DNA of 64,000 nucleotides. Source: Halolamina sp. CBA1230. Its GTDB lineage: Archaea > Halobacteriota > Halobacteria > Halobacteriales > Haloferacaceae. Numbering within the stretch: the first letter of the stretch is position 1; the number at the start of each line of letters is the position of its first letter. The stretch lies in contig NZ_CP054588.1 in NCBI RefSeq assembly GCF_002025255.2, forward strand, positions 124,001 to 188,000, written 5' to 3'. Below the pieces are notes generated by a model. That model searched no databases and was not told the origin of the DNA. It saw nothing but the letters and a program-made list of their open reading frames with translations. Positions 27,226-43,749 of this stretch are shown here, one piece after another. The position numbers were made by a program, and so were the translations under genes.

Positions 27226-27282
27226 ACGGGATGGTTCGGCTGGGGGGAGGGTGAAGGTTCGGTCCGTCGGGACCGGAACCCC

Positions 27283-27306
27283 GGACCCCCGGGGGTGTCC
27301 GCAATT
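27283..27306. repeat. Origin-type repeat, outlying copy
   Basis: Minus strand reads AATTGCGGAC then ACCCCCGGGGGTCC, the same core as the origin repeats at 30813, 32359, 32663 and 32825. It lies in the 5' region of the SDR gene, 5 kb from the main cluster. Confidence 0.55.
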
Positions 27307-27476
27307 CGCCGCCAGTACACGACCGCTTCTCCGAGCCCACGGTGTCCGCCGTTCAGCGCGACGACCAGGTAATCGGCTCAGAAAGACACTCCCCGGGGGA
27401 GAGTCGCTGCAAGCGGCTATCTCTTCCTGAGTCTGTTTTGGGTGCGAGAGTCGATCCATCGCCGGAAGCCTTATCA

Positions 27477-27494
27477 CGAATTATCGATAATTCG
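27477..27494. promoter_or_regulatory. Perfect 18-base palindrome, operator of the HTH-PIN operon
   Basis: CGAATTATCGATAATTCG is a perfect palindrome ending 7 bases before the ATG at 27502. The position would block transcription or its start, fitting autorepression by the HTH protein it precedes. Confidence 0.65.
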
Positions 27495-27501
27495 AATTGA
27501 G

Positions 27502-28038
27502 ATGGCGCAATCACCTCCCCGGTCGGGCCAGCCACCAATTCAGCAGCTCCAGACGGTGGCTGACCTTCTCGAGACGCCGGCACTCGCTCAGATTTATGCC
27601 CACATCTTGCAACACGGGCCGGTCACAGTGTCTGATCTCGTCGGCGACCTCGACGTTCCACAGGGAACTGCCTACGACTACGTGCAGAACCTCGAAACCG
27701 CTGGCTTGGTAGAGAAAACCCGTGAGCAGCGTCCGTATGAGTACGACGCCGAGTCGATTGCACTCACACTCTCGACGGACGGCGAAACCCAAACGATCAC
27801 GCCTGCGCTGATCGCCGCAGTTGCCCGCCGCGATGAGGACGAGGATATTGACGTCTACATCGAGCGCCACGGTCTCGACGGCCTTGCCGTCGCTCTCGAG
27901 TACGCCTACGAATACGTCGACGGCACGGTCAACCATCGGATTGCGGCTCGAGAACTTGATCTTTCACCACTTGAGGCCGAGATCATTCTTCAGGCACTGG
28001 AGCCGGTTGCTACCGAATATGCCGACGCCGCTGTATGA
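27502..28038 (+). CDS. Winged-helix antitoxin/regulator (DUF7437-like)
   Basis: 178-aa protein. An N-terminal HTH (about residues 20-85: ALAQIYAHILQHGPVTVSDLVGDLDVPQGTAYDYV...AGLVEKT) is followed by an acidic C-terminal domain. ATG 27502 follows directly on the palindrome. Its stop overlaps the ATG of the PIN gene, the normal order of antitoxin before toxin. The family is widespread in haloarchaea and usually paired with a PIN-like gene. Codon use is less GC-rich than in the redox island, suggesting transfer. Confidence 0.82.
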   Translation: MAQSPPRSGQPPIQQLQTVADLLETPALAQIYAHILQHGPVTVSDLVGDLDVPQGTAYDYVQNLETAGLVEKTREQRPYEYDAESIALTLSTDGETQTITPALIAAVARRDEDEDIDVYIERHGLDGLAVALEYAYEYVDGTVNHRIAARELDLSPLEAEIILQALEPVATEYADAAV

Positions 28039-28562
28039 CGACGGTCTTTATCGCCGATACCGGCGTCTTCGTCCGGTGTGGTGGGCCGGACAAGGACAAA
28101 TTTCAACGACTTCGTCGATCCCTCCGACAGGCCGGCGTTTCGTTACGTGTCCCACAGCGTGTCTACAAAGAACTTGGCGGGGACCCTGCGGCGGACGCGT
28201 ACCCCTCAGGAAATATCCCGTATCCTGATGGCTTTGAAGAGGGATGGATCGTCGTTGCCGACGAACTCGACTACACAAATCCGCTCGTCTCGACGGTGAT
28301 GGACGAGGCACGCCGGTTTATCGCCAACGAGACCGATCGTGAGGAGGACATCACTGAAAAAGCAGATACGGCGCTCGTGGGGCTTGCTGCTCAGGTACTC
28401 GATACTGGAGAAGCAGACCAAGTGGTTCTTTTGACGACCGATAAACCGGCGGGACGAGCGGCCGAGACGTTCTTGCCACAGCACGGGTTCGACGGCCGTA
28501 TCGAATTTCGGTATGTTAGCGTCGAGTATCTCGAAATGGTCACAGCTGACGAATTTCGGTGA
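28035..28562 (+). CDS. PIN-like ribonuclease toxin partner
   Basis: 175-aa protein. N-terminal VFIADTGVFVRCGG carries the first acidic residue of a PIN fold; later acidic positions include DTALVGLAAQVLDTGEADQVVLLTTDKPAG, matching the final DxxD-type site. The protein is longer than a standard VapC (about 130 aa). Overlap with the upstream HTH gene (ATGA) indicates a type II toxin-antitoxin operon. Nuclease action on RNA is inferred from the fold. Confidence 0.8.
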   Translation: MTTVFIADTGVFVRCGGPDKDKFQRLRRSLRQAGVSLRVPQRVYKELGGDPAADAYPSGNIPYPDGFEEGWIVVADELDYTNPLVSTVMDEARRFIANETDREEDITEKADTALVGLAAQVLDTGEADQVVLLTTDKPAGRAAETFLPQHGFDGRIEFRYVSVEYLEMVTADEFR

Positions 28563-28835: not shown

Positions 28836-30197
<1,362 letters not shown>

Positions 30198-30851
30198 TTT
30201 CCGCGCTGTTTCCGCTATGAATGAGGACACCAACCCAACGTTTCCGACGTGTCGAGAGATACACTCGTGATCAGGGGTGTGGTGAGCGAGCGAAACGGGA
30301 GCTAGGTTTCTTACCGTTTTCCAAGTGCATTCAGCACAGAAAGAAGAATCTCTCCCCACGAGAACCCCCGTTTTTCGTGGCCCTCACCCCACTCTCCTGT
30401 TGGTTTTCACTCTGGACGAGGGGTGTGTGGACAACGACTTCTCTCCAGCTTCCAGTCCGTGTTTCTACTCAGTATTAACCAACAGATCTCCTGACACCTC
30501 GATAGTGTTGGTTAACTTTTCTCAATTTCGAGGAAGGCCGCCAAATTCGTACATCTAGTTTCCGCAATTTCGCATTGAATCTCCGTCCGATCCCGCCTAA
30601 TCGGTGACAGCACACTCTCGACAAATCTTCCTGTCATCGACGACTACGTACTCGATGTCCTTCCACAGCGGTTCAGACCCCAGGCCGATCTGTCACGGCC
30701 GTCTCGACGTGTACCAAGGGCCATTTCCTGAAGATGGCACGTTCGGACACCCCCACGTCCGCCGTACTATCATCTGCCGTTTCGACGTACGAAACCGGCC
30801 GATACCGGCGAAAATTGCGGACATCCCCGGGGGTGGGTCCCCAGCCGAGGA
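30198..30851. other. Gene-free region downstream of orc1
   Basis: About 650 bases with no convincing gene and lower GC. It contains an origin-type repeat at 30813-30839, an inverted repeat TTAACCAAC (30475-30483)/GTTGGTTAA (30507-30515), another CCACGA (30356-30361)/TCGTGG (30375-30380), and a partial TCCGCAATT near 30560. Confidence 0.45.
30813..30839. repeat. Origin-type repeat downstream of orc1
   Basis: AATTGCGGAC followed by ATCCCCGGGGG on the plus strand, immediately beyond the 3' end of the Orc1/Cdc6 gene. Confidence 0.6.
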
Positions 30852-32243
30852 TCACTCGAACGTCTGCTGGCTCGACCCCTGTTCACGAAGCCAGGTCTGT
30901 GTGAGATCGTCGAAGTCGACCGAGTCGAACCGGGAGACGGCTTCCAGCACCTCGATCGCCGTCGACGGCTCGACCCGGAGTTCGAACGTGTAGGCGTTCC
31001 CGCCGACCGAGCCCGAGGCGGACTTTCGGGCGCGGATGATGCTCAGCATGTCGAGTTCGATCAGGTGGTCACGCATCCGGCGCTGGGCGAGCTGATCGGC
31101 GTCGATGTGGTCGGCGAGGGACTTGTACACGTCGTACACGTCGCGGGTGCGGATCCCCGAATGACCGGCCAGTTCGAGCACCGTCACGGCCGCGAGCGCG
31201 AGGTGGCCCTGCATCGTGAGCTGCTCCATCCCCTCGACGATCAGTTCGCGCTCAGCCTCGCCCTGGGCCGCGCGGACGTGTTCTTCCTCGACCTGGGACT
31301 GGCCCTCGGACTCGGCGATCGCGGCGGCCTTGCGGAGGTACTTGATCGCCTGCCTGGCGCTCCCCTTGTCCTGGGCGGCGTAGGCCGCACACAGCGGGAT
31401 CACGTCGCCGGAGAGCGCCTCGGAGTCGACGCCGACCAGGTCGTACGCGTCGCGATCGGCGCCGGCGTCGTCGAACGCCGCGTCGAGCGTCCCCTCACTC
31501 CCGTTCAGATCGATCGAGATCTCGATCTCGTCGCCGTCGTCGTTCTCGTAGCGCAGCGACGTCCCCCGGAACGCCTTGCTCGCCCGTCGGGAGAGGATAT
31601 CCCGGAGATCGTTGGCGTCGTACGGCGCGAAGAAGATGGAGTCGTCGTAGAGGCTGTCCTTCGCCGCGGGGTCGAGGTTGTCCCGCCACTGCAGGTCGTT
31701 GCTGATCCCGATGATCGACGGGTAGACGTCGTCGTCGACGTACTCCTTGTCCCGGGCCCGGGGGAGGGAGTAGAGGATCTTGTCGTCGGTGCCGAGGTTA
31801 TCGATCTCGTCGAGCACGATGATTATCGTGCCGCCGACGTCGTTCATCGCCGCCCAGAGCCGGTCCAACACCTTCTGCATCGGGTGACCGTTGGGGTTCT
31901 CGCTCCCGAGTTCCTCACAGAGCCCGCAGGCGAGCGTGTAGCTCGAGGAGATCCCCTCACACGAGAAGAAGACGGTCGTGAGGTCGAGATCCTGTGACGC
32001 CGCGAACGATTCGAGCTCGCTCAACTCGGCTTTGGCGGCAGCAGTTTTCCCCTGCCCGGCCTTCCCGGAGAGGAACGTGTTCTCGGCGCCGGCGCCACGG
32101 GCCGCGGGCTTCAGCGACCGCCGGAGCTTGAGGATCTCCTCCCGCCGTTCCGGGAGTGTCGTCGGGGTGTGCCCCTCCTTGAGGTAGTCCTCGCCGCCGA
32201 CCGCGAAGATCTCCGACGTAGTCGAGTACGGAGACGATTCCAT
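30852..32243 (-). CDS. orc1: Orc1/Cdc6 replication initiator
   Basis: 463-aa AAA+ initiator that binds origin repeats and recruits MCM. Seen: Walker A SGKAGQGKTAAAK near residue 60, Walker B IIIVLDEIDNLG, sensor-1 IIGISNDLQW, and a C-terminal winged-helix region (EGMEQLTMQGHLALAAVTVLE onward). The start ATG 32243 faces the AT-rich region at 32.4-32.7 kb, the usual arrangement of a haloarchaeal origin with its own initiator. An acidic insert (YENDDGDEIEISIDLNGSEG) lies in the middle. Confidence 0.93.
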   Translation of the reverse strand: MESSPYSTTSEIFAVGGEDYLKEGHTPTTLPERREEILKLRRSLKPAARGAGAENTFLSGKAGQGKTAAAKAELSELESFAASQDLDLTTVFFSCEGISSSYTLACGLCEELGSENPNGHPMQKVLDRLWAAMNDVGGTIIIVLDEIDNLGTDDKILYSLPRARDKEYVDDDVYPSIIGISNDLQWRDNLDPAAKDSLYDDSIFFAPYDANDLRDILSRRASKAFRGTSLRYENDDGDEIEISIDLNGSEGTLDAAFDDAGADRDAYDLVGVDSEALSGDVIPLCAAYAAQDKGSARQAIKYLRKAAAIAESEGQSQVEEEHVRAAQGEAERELIVEGMEQLTMQGHLALAAVTVLELAGHSGIRTRDVYDVYKSLADHIDADQLAQRRMRDHLIELDMLSIIRARKSASGSVGGNAYTFELRVEPSTAIEVLEAVSRFDSVDFDDLTQTWLREQGSSQQTFE

Positions 32244-32358
32244 TGCCAGTCATCGTGGGTTCCAGTCACATAAACCCCACCGTCCGGAACGTCCTCACCG
32301 TCCGAATAACCCCCCGGTGCGTCCGAGATTCGTTTCGGTATCCGGATACTAACTCCCT

Positions 32359-32386
32359 ACCCGGGGGCCCGGGGTTGTCCGCAATT
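32359..32386. repeat. Origin repeat, left copy
   Basis: Plus strand ends GTTGTCCGCAATT; exact inverse of 32663-32690. Confidence 0.8.
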
Positions 32387-32662
32387 ATCGACGAAGGGAG
32401 GGGGAGGGGTTCCCCTTCCCCTTCACCGGCGATGGAGGTGAACGAACTCCCCGATTACACTCGTATCACCTACCATACAACGCTGTTTCCTTCTTGCTCC
32501 GTTTCCTCTCTCGTGTTCTCATTCACGTTTATTATATATTTTACGGTTATTAGTAGTAGTGTAGTAGTAGGGGGCTCAAAACGCGTGTTCTACATCAGTC
32601 TTTCTCCTATTTATATATGGAAGGCTCCAACTACCGACGTCGGTCGGTCCGTTCCCTCGAAG

Positions 32663-32690
32663 AATTGCGGACAACCCCGGGCCCCCGGGT
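32663..32690. repeat. Origin repeat, right copy
   Basis: Plus strand starts AATTGCGGACAACCCCGGG; exact inverse of 32359-32386 over 28 bases. Confidence 0.8.
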
Positions 32691-32824
32691 TACCGAGGGG
32701 GTTATAAAGCCCGGCGCCAGCTGACCTGATCGCGCTTCCGCGTGTCGGGCATCCCGCCTCTCACCACGTTCCGGGAGTGCTTCTCACCGCGGCCGACACT
32801 GATCCCCACCCTCTCTATCGACAG

Positions 32825-32851
32825 AATTGCGGACGACCCCGGGGGCGGGGG
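32825..32851. repeat. Origin repeat, third copy
   Basis: AATTGCGGACGACCCCGGG followed by a G-run, same orientation as the right copy, in the 3' flank of the symporter gene. Confidence 0.7.
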
Positions 32852-32889
32852 TGAACCGGCGATCGCCGACGGCACTCCAGTCAGTCGGT

Positions 32890-34453: not shown

Positions 34454-34714
34454 ATGGGCCAGTCCACTCGGATCACCGAGAAAGGACAGACGACGATCCC
34501 GAAACCCCTCCGCGAGAAGTACGATCTGGACCCCGGCGACGAGGTGGTCTGGATCGACACCGACGACGGGCTCGTCGTCAAGAAGCGGACCCGGACGGAG
34601 GGTCGGGGGCTGCTCGTTCCGGACGACCTGGACGAGTCGTCGCGCGACGCGGTCGCCGACGAGCTCCGCGAGCGCGTCCGGGACCGTCGAGACCGGAACT
34701 ACGAGGGGGCCTGA
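34454..34714 (+). CDS. vapB: AbrB-type antitoxin (VapB)
   Basis: 86-aa protein with an N-terminal swapped-hairpin AbrB domain (RITEKGQTTIPKPLREKYDL, then PGDEVVWIDTDDGLVVKK) and a charged C-terminal tail that would wrap the toxin. It is followed one base later by the PIN gene. Normal length for a VapB of this type. Confidence 0.88.
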   Translation: MGQSTRITEKGQTTIPKPLREKYDLDPGDEVVWIDTDDGLVVKKRTRTEGRGLLVPDDLDESSRDAVADELRERVRDRRDRNYEGA

Positions 34715-36454: not shown

Positions 36455-36859
36455 ATGGAATACGACTTCGATTCGGGAGCGCACTCGACGTTTTCCCTGC
36501 ACTACCACCTGATACTCACCACGAAGTATCGGCGCGGAGTGCTAACCGAGGAGCGAACCCAATTCATACACGAGGTCATCAGCGGGTTCACGGACAACTA
36601 CGGTGTCGAAGTGACCAATCTTGACGGCGAGGACGACCACGTACACATCCTCTTCCGAGCGAAACCCACCACGGACCTCGTGAAGTTCATCAACACTGTT
36701 AAAGGCGCGACCGCCCGCCGTATCCGCAACGAATACGCGGATGAACTGAAGACCGAACTGTGGGGCGACTCGTTCTGGAACGATTCGTACTGCCTCATCT
36801 CGACGGGGCAGGTGTCGCTGGATGTGCTGAAACAGTACGTCGAGGACCAACGCGAGTAG
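36455..36859 (+). CDS. tnpA: IS200/IS605 Y1 transposase TnpA
   Basis: 134-aa single-strand transposase. Seen: the HUH motif in DDHVHILF and the catalytic tyrosine in LKQYVEDQ near the C-terminus. Length is normal, so it looks intact. It precedes tnpB by 6 bases and could mobilise the tnpB-only elements in this window if their ends match. Confidence 0.92.
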   Translation: MEYDFDSGAHSTFSLHYHLILTTKYRRGVLTEERTQFIHEVISGFTDNYGVEVTNLDGEDDHVHILFRAKPTTDLVKFINTVKGATARRIRNEYADELKTELWGDSFWNDSYCLISTGQVSLDVLKQYVEDQRE

Positions 36860-36865
36860 AGCGTC

Positions 36866-38107
36866 ATGTACTACGCCTACAAGTACCGTCTCAAGCCGTC
36901 CGACGCCCACCGTGAGGAGTTGGACCGACACCGAGACATTTGTAGGCAACTGTACAACCACACGCTCTACCGTCTCAACGAGTACCAAGAGAACCACGGC
37001 GAACTACCGTCCATGACCACCCTGCGGTCGGAACTGCCCGACCTCAAGAAGTGGTGGGACGGCCTCAACGAGGTGTACTCGAAGGTCCTCCAAACCGTCG
37101 TGGAACGCCTGTTCGACAACCTCAAAGGACTCTCCAAACTCAAAGAGAACGGCTACGGCGTCGGTCAACTCAAGTGGAAGCCGCCACGGGAGTTCCGCAG
37201 TTTCACGTACAGTCAGTCTGGCTTCAAGCTCGACAAGAAGGGCGGTCAGACTGTCCTGTCGCTCTCGAAACTTGCGAACATACCGATTCGACTCCACCGC
37301 GCCATCCCCGACGACGCGAAGCTCAAACAGGTCACGGTTAAGAAGGAACCGACGGGCGAGTGGTTCGCCACCTTCGGCGTCCAAATGGACCGTGAACCAC
37401 CCGAACCGCCTGAGAACCCCGAGAAGTGCGTCGGCATCGACGTTGGGATTCTCAAGTACGCTCATGACACCGACGGCACGGCAGTCGGATCGCTCGACCT
37501 CTCTGACGAGCGCGAACGCTTGGAGCGCGAGCAACGGAATCTCTCGCGGAAGCAACACGGGTCGAATAACTACGAGAAGCAACGGCGTCGGGTTGCGGAG
37601 TGTCATGCCGACCTTCGACGGAAGCGCCGTGACTTCTTGCACAAACTCTCGAACTACTACGCGGGAGAGTACGACCTCGTAGCGGTCGAAGACCTGAACG
37701 TGAAGGGGATGATGGAGTCGCCGTCGAACAGCCGCAACACGGCGTCTGCCGCGTGGCGGACGTTCCTCTCGTTGCTCGAATACAAGTGCGAGCGGGAGGG
37801 AACGCACTTCGTAGCGGTGGACCCGAGAGGGACGACCAAGGAGTGCGCGGCGTGCGGTGTCTCGACGGAGAAGCCGTTGTGGGTCCGTGAACACTCTTGT
37901 CCCTCGTGCGGGTTCGAGGCAGACAGGGACGCGAACGCGGCGTGGAACATTCTTTCTCGCGGCCTCGAAGATGTAGGAGTGGGATACTCCGAATCAACGC
38001 CTGTGGAGACTGCGCTCCCTGTGGACACCTCCGTGTCTGCAAAGCGCGTCGTGGAAGCAGGAAGCCCTACCCTCAAGGAGCGAACGGCGTCAGCCGTGAG
38101 CGAGTAG
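36866..38107 (+). CDS. tnpB: TnpB RNA-guided nuclease (element B)
   Basis: 413-aa TnpB. Seen: RuvC-I GIDVGILKYAHDTDG, RuvC-II VAVEDLNVKGMME, zinc ribbon CAACG...CPSCG, RuvC-III DRDANAAWNIL. All catalytic acids are present. The 3' end overlaps the right-end stem, as for the omega RNA of TnpB systems. Confidence 0.93.
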   Translation: MYYAYKYRLKPSDAHREELDRHRDICRQLYNHTLYRLNEYQENHGELPSMTTLRSELPDLKKWWDGLNEVYSKVLQTVVERLFDNLKGLSKLKENGYGVGQLKWKPPREFRSFTYSQSGFKLDKKGGQTVLSLSKLANIPIRLHRAIPDDAKLKQVTVKKEPTGEWFATFGVQMDREPPEPPENPEKCVGIDVGILKYAHDTDGTAVGSLDLSDERERLEREQRNLSRKQHGSNNYEKQRRRVAECHADLRRKRRDFLHKLSNYYAGEYDLVAVEDLNVKGMMESPSNSRNTASAAWRTFLSLLEYKCEREGTHFVAVDPRGTTKECAACGVSTEKPLWVREHSCPSCGFEADRDANAAWNILSRGLEDVGVGYSESTPVETALPVDTSVSAKRVVEAGSPTLKERTASAVSE

Positions 38108-41100: not shown

Positions 41101-42634
41101 GCTCACTCCTTTAGGGGTGGGTGTGAGCGGACACTCCCGATCAACAATCCACCGCCTCATCGCCCGGCGGTGATTCCCACCGCATCTGCAGCCTTTACAA
41201 CCAAAGAGCCACACAGTAATCGCTGTCATGCGGCGGGTCAACACCTTCCGAGTCAGCCCCCTTCAGGAGAGAGACAAGCTGATTCTCTACGAGGTGCTTG
41301 ATGCGTCCGCCGCACTGTGGAACGAACTCACCTACCACCGCCGCCAAGCCTTCTTCCAAGACCAAGACGTCTGGAGCGTCGACGCCGACGAATACCGAGT
41401 GAAGTACAAGGGCGTCCTCGGCAGTGCCACCGCCCAACAGATCATCCGCCGCAACGACGAGGCGTGGCGGTCGTTCTTCAAGCTCCTCGAAAATGGCGAA
41501 CGCCCCTCGCCGCCCGGCTACTGGAAGGACGAAGACAGCGGCGAACGCACCCTTCAGACCCTCGTGCGCAACGATATGTACTCGGTGGAGTGGGGCGAAC
41601 GGAGCAGGTTGGAGATCCCGGTCGGTCACGACCTCAAAGAGAGGTACGGTCTCGGCTACCACGAGCGACTCCGACTCGAAGCACAAGGCGACCCACGGTG
41701 GCGTGGGGAGCAAGGTCGGTTGGAACTGGTGTACGACAAAAGTGCTGAAGCGTTCAGGGCACGACAACCCGTCAAAGATGCTGTCCTACGACGGGATGAT
41801 GAATCACTGGCCACCACCTCGGGCGACGACGGGGCGGTGGCAGCCTTGGACATCGGCGCCAACAACCTCGTCGCCGTCACCACCACCACCGGCCACCAGC
41901 GCCTCTACCACGCACGCCCCCAATTCAAACGCTTCCGCCAAACTACCCAACAAATCGCCGCCCTGCAACAAGACCTCGCGTATGGCACGTGGTCAAGTCG
42001 GCGCATCCGGAAGCTGTATGGCCGGCGCACCGAGCGTGTCTACCACCTCCAAGACGCTCTTGTCCGCGACCTCGCGGAGTGGCTCGCGGAACTGGGTGTC
42101 AGTGAGGTAATCGCCGGCGACCTCGGCGACGTGCTGCAGAAGCACTGGAGTGCCGTAGTGAACGAGAAGACACACCAGTTCTGGAGCCACGGTCGGTTCC
42201 GTCGGCGTCTCCGAGAAGTCCTAGAGGGCGAGTACGACATCTCTGTGCGAGAGGTTTCCGAGTCCGGTTCATCCTCGAGGTGTCCGGAGTGTGGCGCGGG
42301 GAACGTCCATCGAGAGGGTGATCTGCTCACGTGCTACGACTGCAGTTTTGAGGGGCACAGTGATTTGGCGGCGTCGGAGAACCTGTTGGTGGAACACGCA
42401 GATGATGGGTCGATGGCTCGGCCCGCGGTCTCTCGAGAGAACACGACGGAGAGGGCACATGGAGACGTGGCCCGCCTCGAGTGGGACGATCACCGTTGGC
42501 GACGGCGGGATCAACAGACCAAAGAGGAACCTGCAGACCGGAGTACCCTGCACAGGGGGAAACTTGCCTCCGGTGCTGGTTCAGGCACGGCCTGAATCAT
42601 CCACGCGGAGGAATCCCACCCTTTCAGGGGTGGG
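41101..42634 (+). mobile_element. TnpB-only IS1341-type element C
   Basis: Left hairpin GCTCACTCCTTTAGGGGTGG...GTGAGC (41101-41128) and right hairpin CCCACCCTTTCAGGGGTGGG (42615-42634), the latter followed by AGGAAGTCA. No TnpA. It is inserted between the double-HTH gene and the second orc gene. Confidence 0.75.
41228..42595 (+). CDS. tnpB: TnpB-family protein with altered RuvC-II motif (element C)
   Basis: 455-aa TnpB. RuvC-I is ALDIGANNLVAVTTTTG, the zinc ribbon is CPECG...CYDCS, and RuvC-III is HSDLAASENLL. At RuvC-II the usual Glu-Asp/Asn-Leu is replaced by VIAGDLGDVLQKHW, that is, Gly-Asp-Leu. The protein at 51711 has the same change. The last 40 or so residues read into the right end, so the functional protein may be shorter. 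Confidence 0.88.
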   Translation: MRRVNTFRVSPLQERDKLILYEVLDASAALWNELTYHRRQAFFQDQDVWSVDADEYRVKYKGVLGSATAQQIIRRNDEAWRSFFKLLENGERPSPPGYWKDEDSGERTLQTLVRNDMYSVEWGERSRLEIPVGHDLKERYGLGYHERLRLEAQGDPRWRGEQGRLELVYDKSAEAFRARQPVKDAVLRRDDESLATTSGDDGAVAALDIGANNLVAVTTTTGHQRLYHARPQFKRFRQTTQQIAALQQDLAYGTWSSRRIRKLYGRRTERVYHLQDALVRDLAEWLAELGVSEVIAGDLGDVLQKHWSAVVNEKTHQFWSHGRFRRRLREVLEGEYDISVREVSESGSSSRCPECGAGNVHREGDLLTCYDCSFEGHSDLAASENLLVEHADDGSMARPAVSRENTTERAHGDVARLEWDDHRWRRRDQQTKEEPADRSTLHRGKLASGAGSGTA

Positions 42635-42744: not shown

Positions 42745-43749
42745 ATGCTGCGAGACGGGACGGTCTTCGAGGACGAACATCTCCCCCGCGAGATCGTCGG
42801 CCGAAACAGTCAGATGAACGAGGTGACCGACGCGCTCACGCCCGTCGAGGACGGCGCCCGCGCGGAGAACTGCTTCCTGTTCGGCCCCAGCGGCGCCGGC
42901 AAGACCACCGTCGCCCGCGCGGCGGTCCGGGAGCTCCGGCGTGCGGTGCATGGCGTCCCGACGGCCTACATCAACTGCTGGAAGGATTACACCCGGAGCG
43001 GCGTGCTCGAACGCGCCGCGAAGGATCTCGCCGGCGCCGCCGTGCCGAAGAACGTCGCCGCCCGCGAGTTGATCGACACGCTCCAGAACGGGATCGATTC
43101 GCCGAGCGTGATCGTCCTCGACGAGGTCGACCAGCTCCAGGACCCCGGGACGCTGTACGACCTCCACTCCGTCCCGGGGTTGGCGTGGATCTGTATCGCC
43201 AACCGCGAGGTCGACCTGCTCGCCCGCCTCGACGAGCGCGTCCACTCCCGGGTCTCCGTGGGCTACCGCGTCCAGTTCGACCGCTACACCGTCGACACGA
43301 CCGCCGAGATCCTCGACCGCCGGGCGGCGGAGGGGCTGGAGCCCGGCGCCGTCGACCGGCCGACGCTCGATCGGATCGCCGAACTGGTCGACGGCGACGC
43401 CCGACAGGCGATCACGGCGCTCAGGGTCGCCGCGCGCAAAGCCGAGCGCGAGGGGCTGTCGACGATTCCGCCCCGGCTCGTCGACGACGCCGTGCTCGAC
43501 GCCGAGGCCGCGGTGCGGCAGAAGACGATCTCGAAGCTCAACGACCACCAGCGCGTGCTGTACGAGTGTATCGAGGCGTCGGGCCCGCTGATCCAGAAGG
43601 AGCTGTACGAGCAGTACGAGCAGGAACACCCCGACCCCATCACGCTCCGGGGGCTGCGGAAGACCCACCTGCCCAAGCTGGAACACTACAACCTGATCGA
43701 GACCGAACGCGGCGGCGACGGCAAGACCTACCGGCTCGCGTCGGGGTAG
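42745..43749 (+). CDS. Orc1/Cdc6-family protein, second copy
   Basis: 334-aa AAA+ protein. Seen: Walker A GPSGAGKTTVAR, Walker B VIVLDEVDQLQD, sensor-1 WICIANREVDLL, lid region (GDARQAITALRVAARKAE) and a C-terminal winged helix (HQRVLYECIEASGPLIQKELYEQY). It is shorter than the orc1 at 30852, typical of the short Orc paralogues of haloarchaea. No copies of the 30-32 kb origin repeat are seen next to it. A palindrome CGAAACGTTTCG lies about 90 bases upstream. Confidence 0.92.
   Translation: MLRDGTVFEDEHLPREIVGRNSQMNEVTDALTPVEDGARAENCFLFGPSGAGKTTVARAAVRELRRAVHGVPTAYINCWKDYTRSGVLERAAKDLAGAAVPKNVAARELIDTLQNGIDSPSVIVLDEVDQLQDPGTLYDLHSVPGLAWICIANREVDLLARLDERVHSRVSVGYRVQFDRYTVDTTAEILDRRAAEGLEPGAVDRPTLDRIAELVDGDARQAITALRVAARKAEREGLSTIPPRLVDDAVLDAEAAVRQKTISKLNDHQRVLYECIEASGPLIQKELYEQYEQEHPDPITLRGLRKTHLPKLEHYNLIETERGGDGKTYRLASG

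Follow-up and report, generated by a model that had tools for sequence, protein, structure and literature searches.

The middle of archaeal replication origins is usually described merely as AT-rich, and how archaeal Orc1/Cdc6 proteins open the DNA is not settled. Haloarchaeal origins adjacent to orc/cdc6 genes were surveyed by Wu et al. in 2012, and those described in the parts of the survey available to us have an orc gene next to inverted boxes that carry G-strings and enclose an AT-rich middle (PMC3528665). Under the rule given there, origins whose Orc proteins are at least 80% identical belong to the same family. The same parts of the survey predict four origins on pHLAC01 of Halorubrum lacusprofundi and omit the boxes of families with one member. 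In Haloarcula hispanica, boxes flank the initiator gene of oriC2-cdc6E on both sides, and the downstream boxes (oriC2D) lower the activity of the origin (PMC3936714).

We found an origin-like locus of this kind in the window (the whole 64-kb stretch of DNA that was analysed, C2:124001-188000). Judging from its sequence, we put the probability at about 0.86 that the locus serves a 254-kb plasmid as an origin of replication that depends on Orc1/Cdc6, in a self-contained cassette of origin and initiator gene (Table 1). The preliminary description had proposed a perfect 28-bp inverted repeat around an AT-rich segment, next to the start of an orc1/cdc6 gene and with a third copy farther out, and had recognized in this the plan of haloarchaeal orc-linked origins. 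All of these features were found, and the plan is supported at the level of sequence. The two arms are complementary at 28 of 28 positions and 276 bp apart; by chance, about 1e-9 such perfect repeats would be expected in 64 kb at spacings of up to 400 bp. The third copy lies at 32823-32852, shows 83% identity over 30 nt and has its box starting 134 bp past the second arm; the orc ATG (at 32243) is 115 bp from the closest arm. The best 60 bp of the bracketed segment are 70% A+T. Two further boxes, both past the orc stop codon, had been missed; the mismatch search placed them at 30813-30831 (plus strand) and 27288-27306 (minus strand).

Table 1. Features of the origin locus. Positions are those of the window unless stated otherwise.
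Feature	Position	Strand	Remarks
Fifth box, 3.5 kb past orc stop	27279..27306	-	Mismatch search, weight matrix; position not conserved in relatives
Box directly past orc stop codon, candidate titration site	30813..30840	+	Mismatch search
orc1/cdc6-family initiator gene	30852..32243	-	463 aa; AAA+ ATPase, Cdc6 lid, C-terminal winged helix; TIGR02928, PF22703, PF09079
TATA-like TTTAT of orc	32270..32274	-	27 bp upstream of ATG; GGGGG-TTTAT context conserved
CGGAC core repeats, directly upstream of TATA-like element	32282..32304	-	Cores 32282-32286 and 32300-32304
Degenerate box in orc promoter	32310..32330	-	Aligned in all orthologs having the upstream region
Inner origin recognition box, orc-proximal (arm 1)	32359..32386	-	Repeat search, mismatch search, weight matrix
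AT-rich spacer between inner boxes	32387..32662		51% A+T, background 37%
48-bp conserved AT element, candidate duplex-unwinding element	32523..32570	-	Diverged copy; 92 bp from one inner box, 136 bp from the other
Inner origin recognition box, distal (arm 2)	32663..32690	+	Repeat search, mismatch search, weight matrix
Outer origin recognition box (third copy)	32825..32852	+	Repeat search, mismatch search, weight matrix
Second candidate origin (L076)	C2, about 52.3-54.5 kb		orc of 448 aa; boxes GATTTCATATCGCACACGGGG on both sides of the gene

Beyond these five boxes, the 254-kb contig has no other good copy. The window has five matches with at most three mismatches (0.03 expected). In the whole genome (four contigs, 3.47 Mb), only these five boxes match with one mismatch or none, and allowing up to three adds two matches, both chromosomal and both with three mismatches. 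On the 254-kb contig, five matches to a weight matrix scored above 36 and the next best scored 12.3. Boxes near the other orc genes of the genome have different sequences, and those that show inverted repeats have other repeats. The window's box is also absent from the boxes quoted in the parts of Wu et al. available to us (PMC3528665), and a literature search for AATTGCGGAC returned no haloarchaeal-origin paper containing it, judged by title.

The orc gene itself is intact and, judged by dN/dS of 0.04-0.20 against its orthologs, under purifying selection. The protein scored 333 bits against TIGR02928 (cut-off 181) and also matched PF22703 and PF09079. Its relatives in the PDB are 2v1u and 2qby, which we take to be DNA-bound structures of archaeal Orc (Aeropyrum and Sulfolobus Cdc6). 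Origin-bound structures exist for the Cdc6 proteins of both organisms (PMC4010727).

The locus lies off the main chromosome: its contig (C2, 254,488 bp) has no rRNA genes, and Orc proteins 83-87% identical are found on plasmids of many haloarchaeal genera. Both 16S rRNA genes are on C1, the chromosome (2,904,575 bp). The suggestion of a former plasmid origin thus stands as to the plasmid and falls as to "former": the origin sits on a present 254-kb contig apart from the 16S-bearing chromosome. It does not qualify as oriC1, since the contig has no 16S genes and the box is absent near the chromosomal orc genes. No terminal overlap was found at the ends of C2. GC skew was dropped as a means of locating the origin, because its amplitude over the whole contig was not significant (146 of 2000 shuffles were as large) and its extremes were not at the origin. 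Several other genes lie nearby. Three IS200/IS605-type TnpB-like genes surround the origin (28843-30087, 36455-38107 and 41228-42595; Pfam was run on the first two), one with an adjoining TnpA. A small HTH regulator (DUF7437/TrmB) overlapping a gene with no Pfam match (27442-28562) and a MazE-like antitoxin (34454-34714) are possible plasmid-stability modules. A second orc/cdc6-like gene in the window (42745-43749, plus strand, 334 aa) has the AAA+ and Cdc6 lid domains and no match to the Cdc6_C winged helix. No inverted box repeat was found near it; it is an orphan, with perhaps a regulatory role.

The origin belongs to a family common to the plasmids of more than 10 genera. Orthologs of the Orc protein (83-87% identity) are on complete plasmids of 138-706 kb from Halorubrum, Haloarcula, Halobaculum, Halopenitus, Halostella/Salinibaculum and strain DL31, and on contigs of Halolamina, Halobellus, Haloarchaeobius and others. 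From this distribution, the origin is now plasmid-borne and its family has spread across genera. One member is pHLAC01, whose Orc is 86% identical and whose boxes are the same, placing both origins in one family by the rule of at least 80% Orc identity and similar boxes, as given in the available parts of the survey (PMC3528665). Neither the Orc nor the box had a match in 2.9 million viral contigs, and a virus-borne origin was rejected.

Layout among the relatives was nearly uniform. The AATTGCGGAC..CCCCGGG box was present in 19 of 19 distinct orthologous loci. In 16 of these (window included), the region within 1.3 kb upstream of orc had a single forward box at -143 to -296, followed by at least one reverse box; most orthologs also had outer boxes in the same orientation at about -530 to -1000. 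A reverse box lay +24 to +150 bp past the stop codon in 18 of the 19. At locus L031 the whole box set was shifted to about -1.7 to -2.5 kb, apparently by inserted DNA, and no upstream boxes were seen within 0.14 kb at L035 or within 1.5 kb at L049. With the same box at every locus and the layout at nearly all, the most fitting reading of the window's locus is an ordinary plasmid origin from a family that is widely exchanged. Two near-identical copies of origin and orc (L212 and L216) are on one contig, C2 of genome G400.

Box and initiator change together. In a tree of Orc proteins, each of three box classes corresponded to one clade (support 100/99 or more), and class 1 (AATTGCGGAC, the window's class) was sister to class 2 (AATTGCTGAAAC; support 100/98). 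Box class went with Orc clade across 19 distinct loci, which bears out the idea of a separate origin class. Members of another Orc clade (L096-L103) have a conserved GAAAAGTTTATAATA..GAGCTAGACCG block near orc and no CTA array.

The element between the boxes did not change with them. The best-conserved stretch of the class 1 spacer was CTACTTACTACT..TAATAGAAAAATTTATTATATACG, and class 2 origins had the same kind of AT element between their differing boxes. For nearly all of 17 class 1 loci, the best match of a matrix built from class 2 alone fell where it was expected, and 9 of the 17 scored above all 77 control origins from other Orc clades. These controls had no such element in their upstream regions, ruling out a general haloarchaeal AT element. 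The window's copy was at the expected place but scored 5.0, compared to 13.3 for the best control; taken alone, it would not be recognizable. The class 2 element, used as a blastn query against 7.3 billion plasmid bases, matched only five records: the four listed class 2 plasmids and DL31, which has a class 1 origin. The plain pattern GAAAANNTTATNATA also occurs elsewhere in genomes, and a match to the element matrix at C2:59 kb looked like a chance AT-rich stretch. For the third clade (L105 and L107), where the element was located by pattern search and scored within the control range, its presence is only suggestive.

The distance between box and element was also kept. It was about 92 bp on each side in most class 1 loci and about 115 bp on each side in class 2. 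The larger changes were +10, +11, +23 and +44 in class 1 (+44 being the 136 bp in the window) and +10, -11, -22 and -41 in class 2; L055 had a change of +157. Placements at L040, L043 and L221, where matches to the element were weak, may be off by a few bases. Among these few, hand-picked events, taken from the same data that gave rise to the hypothesis, the larger changes clustered at a period of about 11 bp (none of 20,000 random sets was as good with the full set, in which the shift from class 1 to class 2 was counted on both sides, and 1 of 20,000 without the largest change). Eight previously unused loci had the spacings predicted from the first set: 91/91, then 113-116 on most sides, with 112 once and 104 once. 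From the near-fixed, mostly helically phased distance, it seems that the Orc complexes flanking the element must face it. The parts of Wu et al. available to us describe no common AT element or spacing rule, unlike what we see in this family (PMC3528665).

Since the orc of the second candidate origin (L076), about 100 kb away on C2, has inverted boxes of its own, the window's origin could be silent. That is, it might be a dormant or relic origin that keeps its boxes and orc while replication of the contig starts at the other orc-linked origin, at C2:53 kb. The divergence of the window's AT element, which together with the gap of 136 rather than 92 bp also weighs against the main reading, is compatible with this, as is the tolerance of H. 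hispanica, which survives the deletion of most origins and needs only one active pair of origin and initiator per replicon (PMC3936714). We nevertheless consider dormancy unlikely: orc is under purifying selection, and all of the boxes and promoter elements are intact. A truly decayed relative offers a contrast. At L114 (1383-1650), boxes, AT element and orc promoter repeats are present and no orc gene was detected in the 3-kb locus, though even there the core is still well preserved.

A different doubt concerns the 48-bp element, which could be the BRE/TATA promoter of a short origin transcript and not an unwinding element. GAAAANNTTATAATA resembles what we take to be an archaeal BRE plus TATA box. 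In contrast, the element sits halfway between the boxes, at distances in helical phase, and its orientation varies. At L032, about 300-530 bp upstream of orc, two identical inverted boxes enclose a core that runs opposite to that of the other relatives, as though the boxes had recombined with each other, so the direction of the element relative to orc is not fixed. Its orientation also differs between L105 and L107. Together these differences argue against an orc promoter and favour a role that does not depend on orientation, for instance unwinding, and we regard the transcript promoter as doubtful. A stronger version of the unwinding role is a long shot: a sequence-specific element, made up of CTA/TAG triplets and then GAAAANNTTATAATA, that is retained as the boxes change, must sit midway on a set helical face, and would be gripped directly by Orc at both boxes, convergent with bacterial DnaA-trios. 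The bacterial DnaA-trio (basal unwinding) system likewise has an array of TAG/CTA triplets by an AT-rich stretch and an AAA+ initiator. In its DNA, the window's locus shares with that system only a triplet array. The locus falls outside the bacterial system, as its triplets are about 92 bp from the nearest box and the search rule permits no more than 16 bp (PMC8287927).

The orc promoter has boxes as well. In every ortholog with the upstream region, CGGAC-like repeats come after a degenerate box and abut GGGGG-TTTAT, with the repeats 9-10 bp apart in most; in the window, a third CGGAC core (32321-32325) lies within the degenerate box. In class 2, the element adjoining the TATA-like sequence resembles that class's own box, with CTGAA or CTGTAA in place of CGGAC. 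That the promoter sites vary with box class fits regulation of each orc gene by its own product, and orc may be autoregulated through these class-specific boxes. The box past the stop codon probably titrates Orc. It is alike in position to oriC2D, which lowers origin activity and has 11 boxes of another sequence (PMC3936714), whereas the window has one conserved box past the stop and one 3.5 kb away. It is very improbable that the boxes are mainly operators, used by Orc or some other factor to control orc and the genes around it, with replication secondary: degenerate boxes and CGGAC repeats do adjoin the TATA-like element in every ortholog with the upstream region, and boxes lie past the gene as well, but the inner pair brackets an AT-rich element at a near-fixed distance, more than a promoter needs, and the inversion at L032 leaves the element without a fixed direction relative to orc.

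The anatomy of the locus, its conservation and the joint change of box and Orc point to the following course for an active plasmid origin. Orc made from the adjoining gene would bind the inverted inner pair on either side of the AT element, and the outer boxes would bring additional Orc. Bound Orc would bend the AT-rich middle and help to open the DNA at the 48-bp element, which would melt; Orc would then load MCM, allowing the origin to fire. The helical phase suggests a set three-dimensional arrangement. Orc at the degenerate promoter boxes would limit its own synthesis, and the box after the stop would titrate it.

The kind of origin is already known; the AT element and its spacing are the part worth following. 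Box sequence varies in this family while the central element and its helically phased distance persist, and this offers a clue, open to experiment, as to how such origins are opened. As a candidate vector origin, the cassette would also span many haloarchaeal genera.
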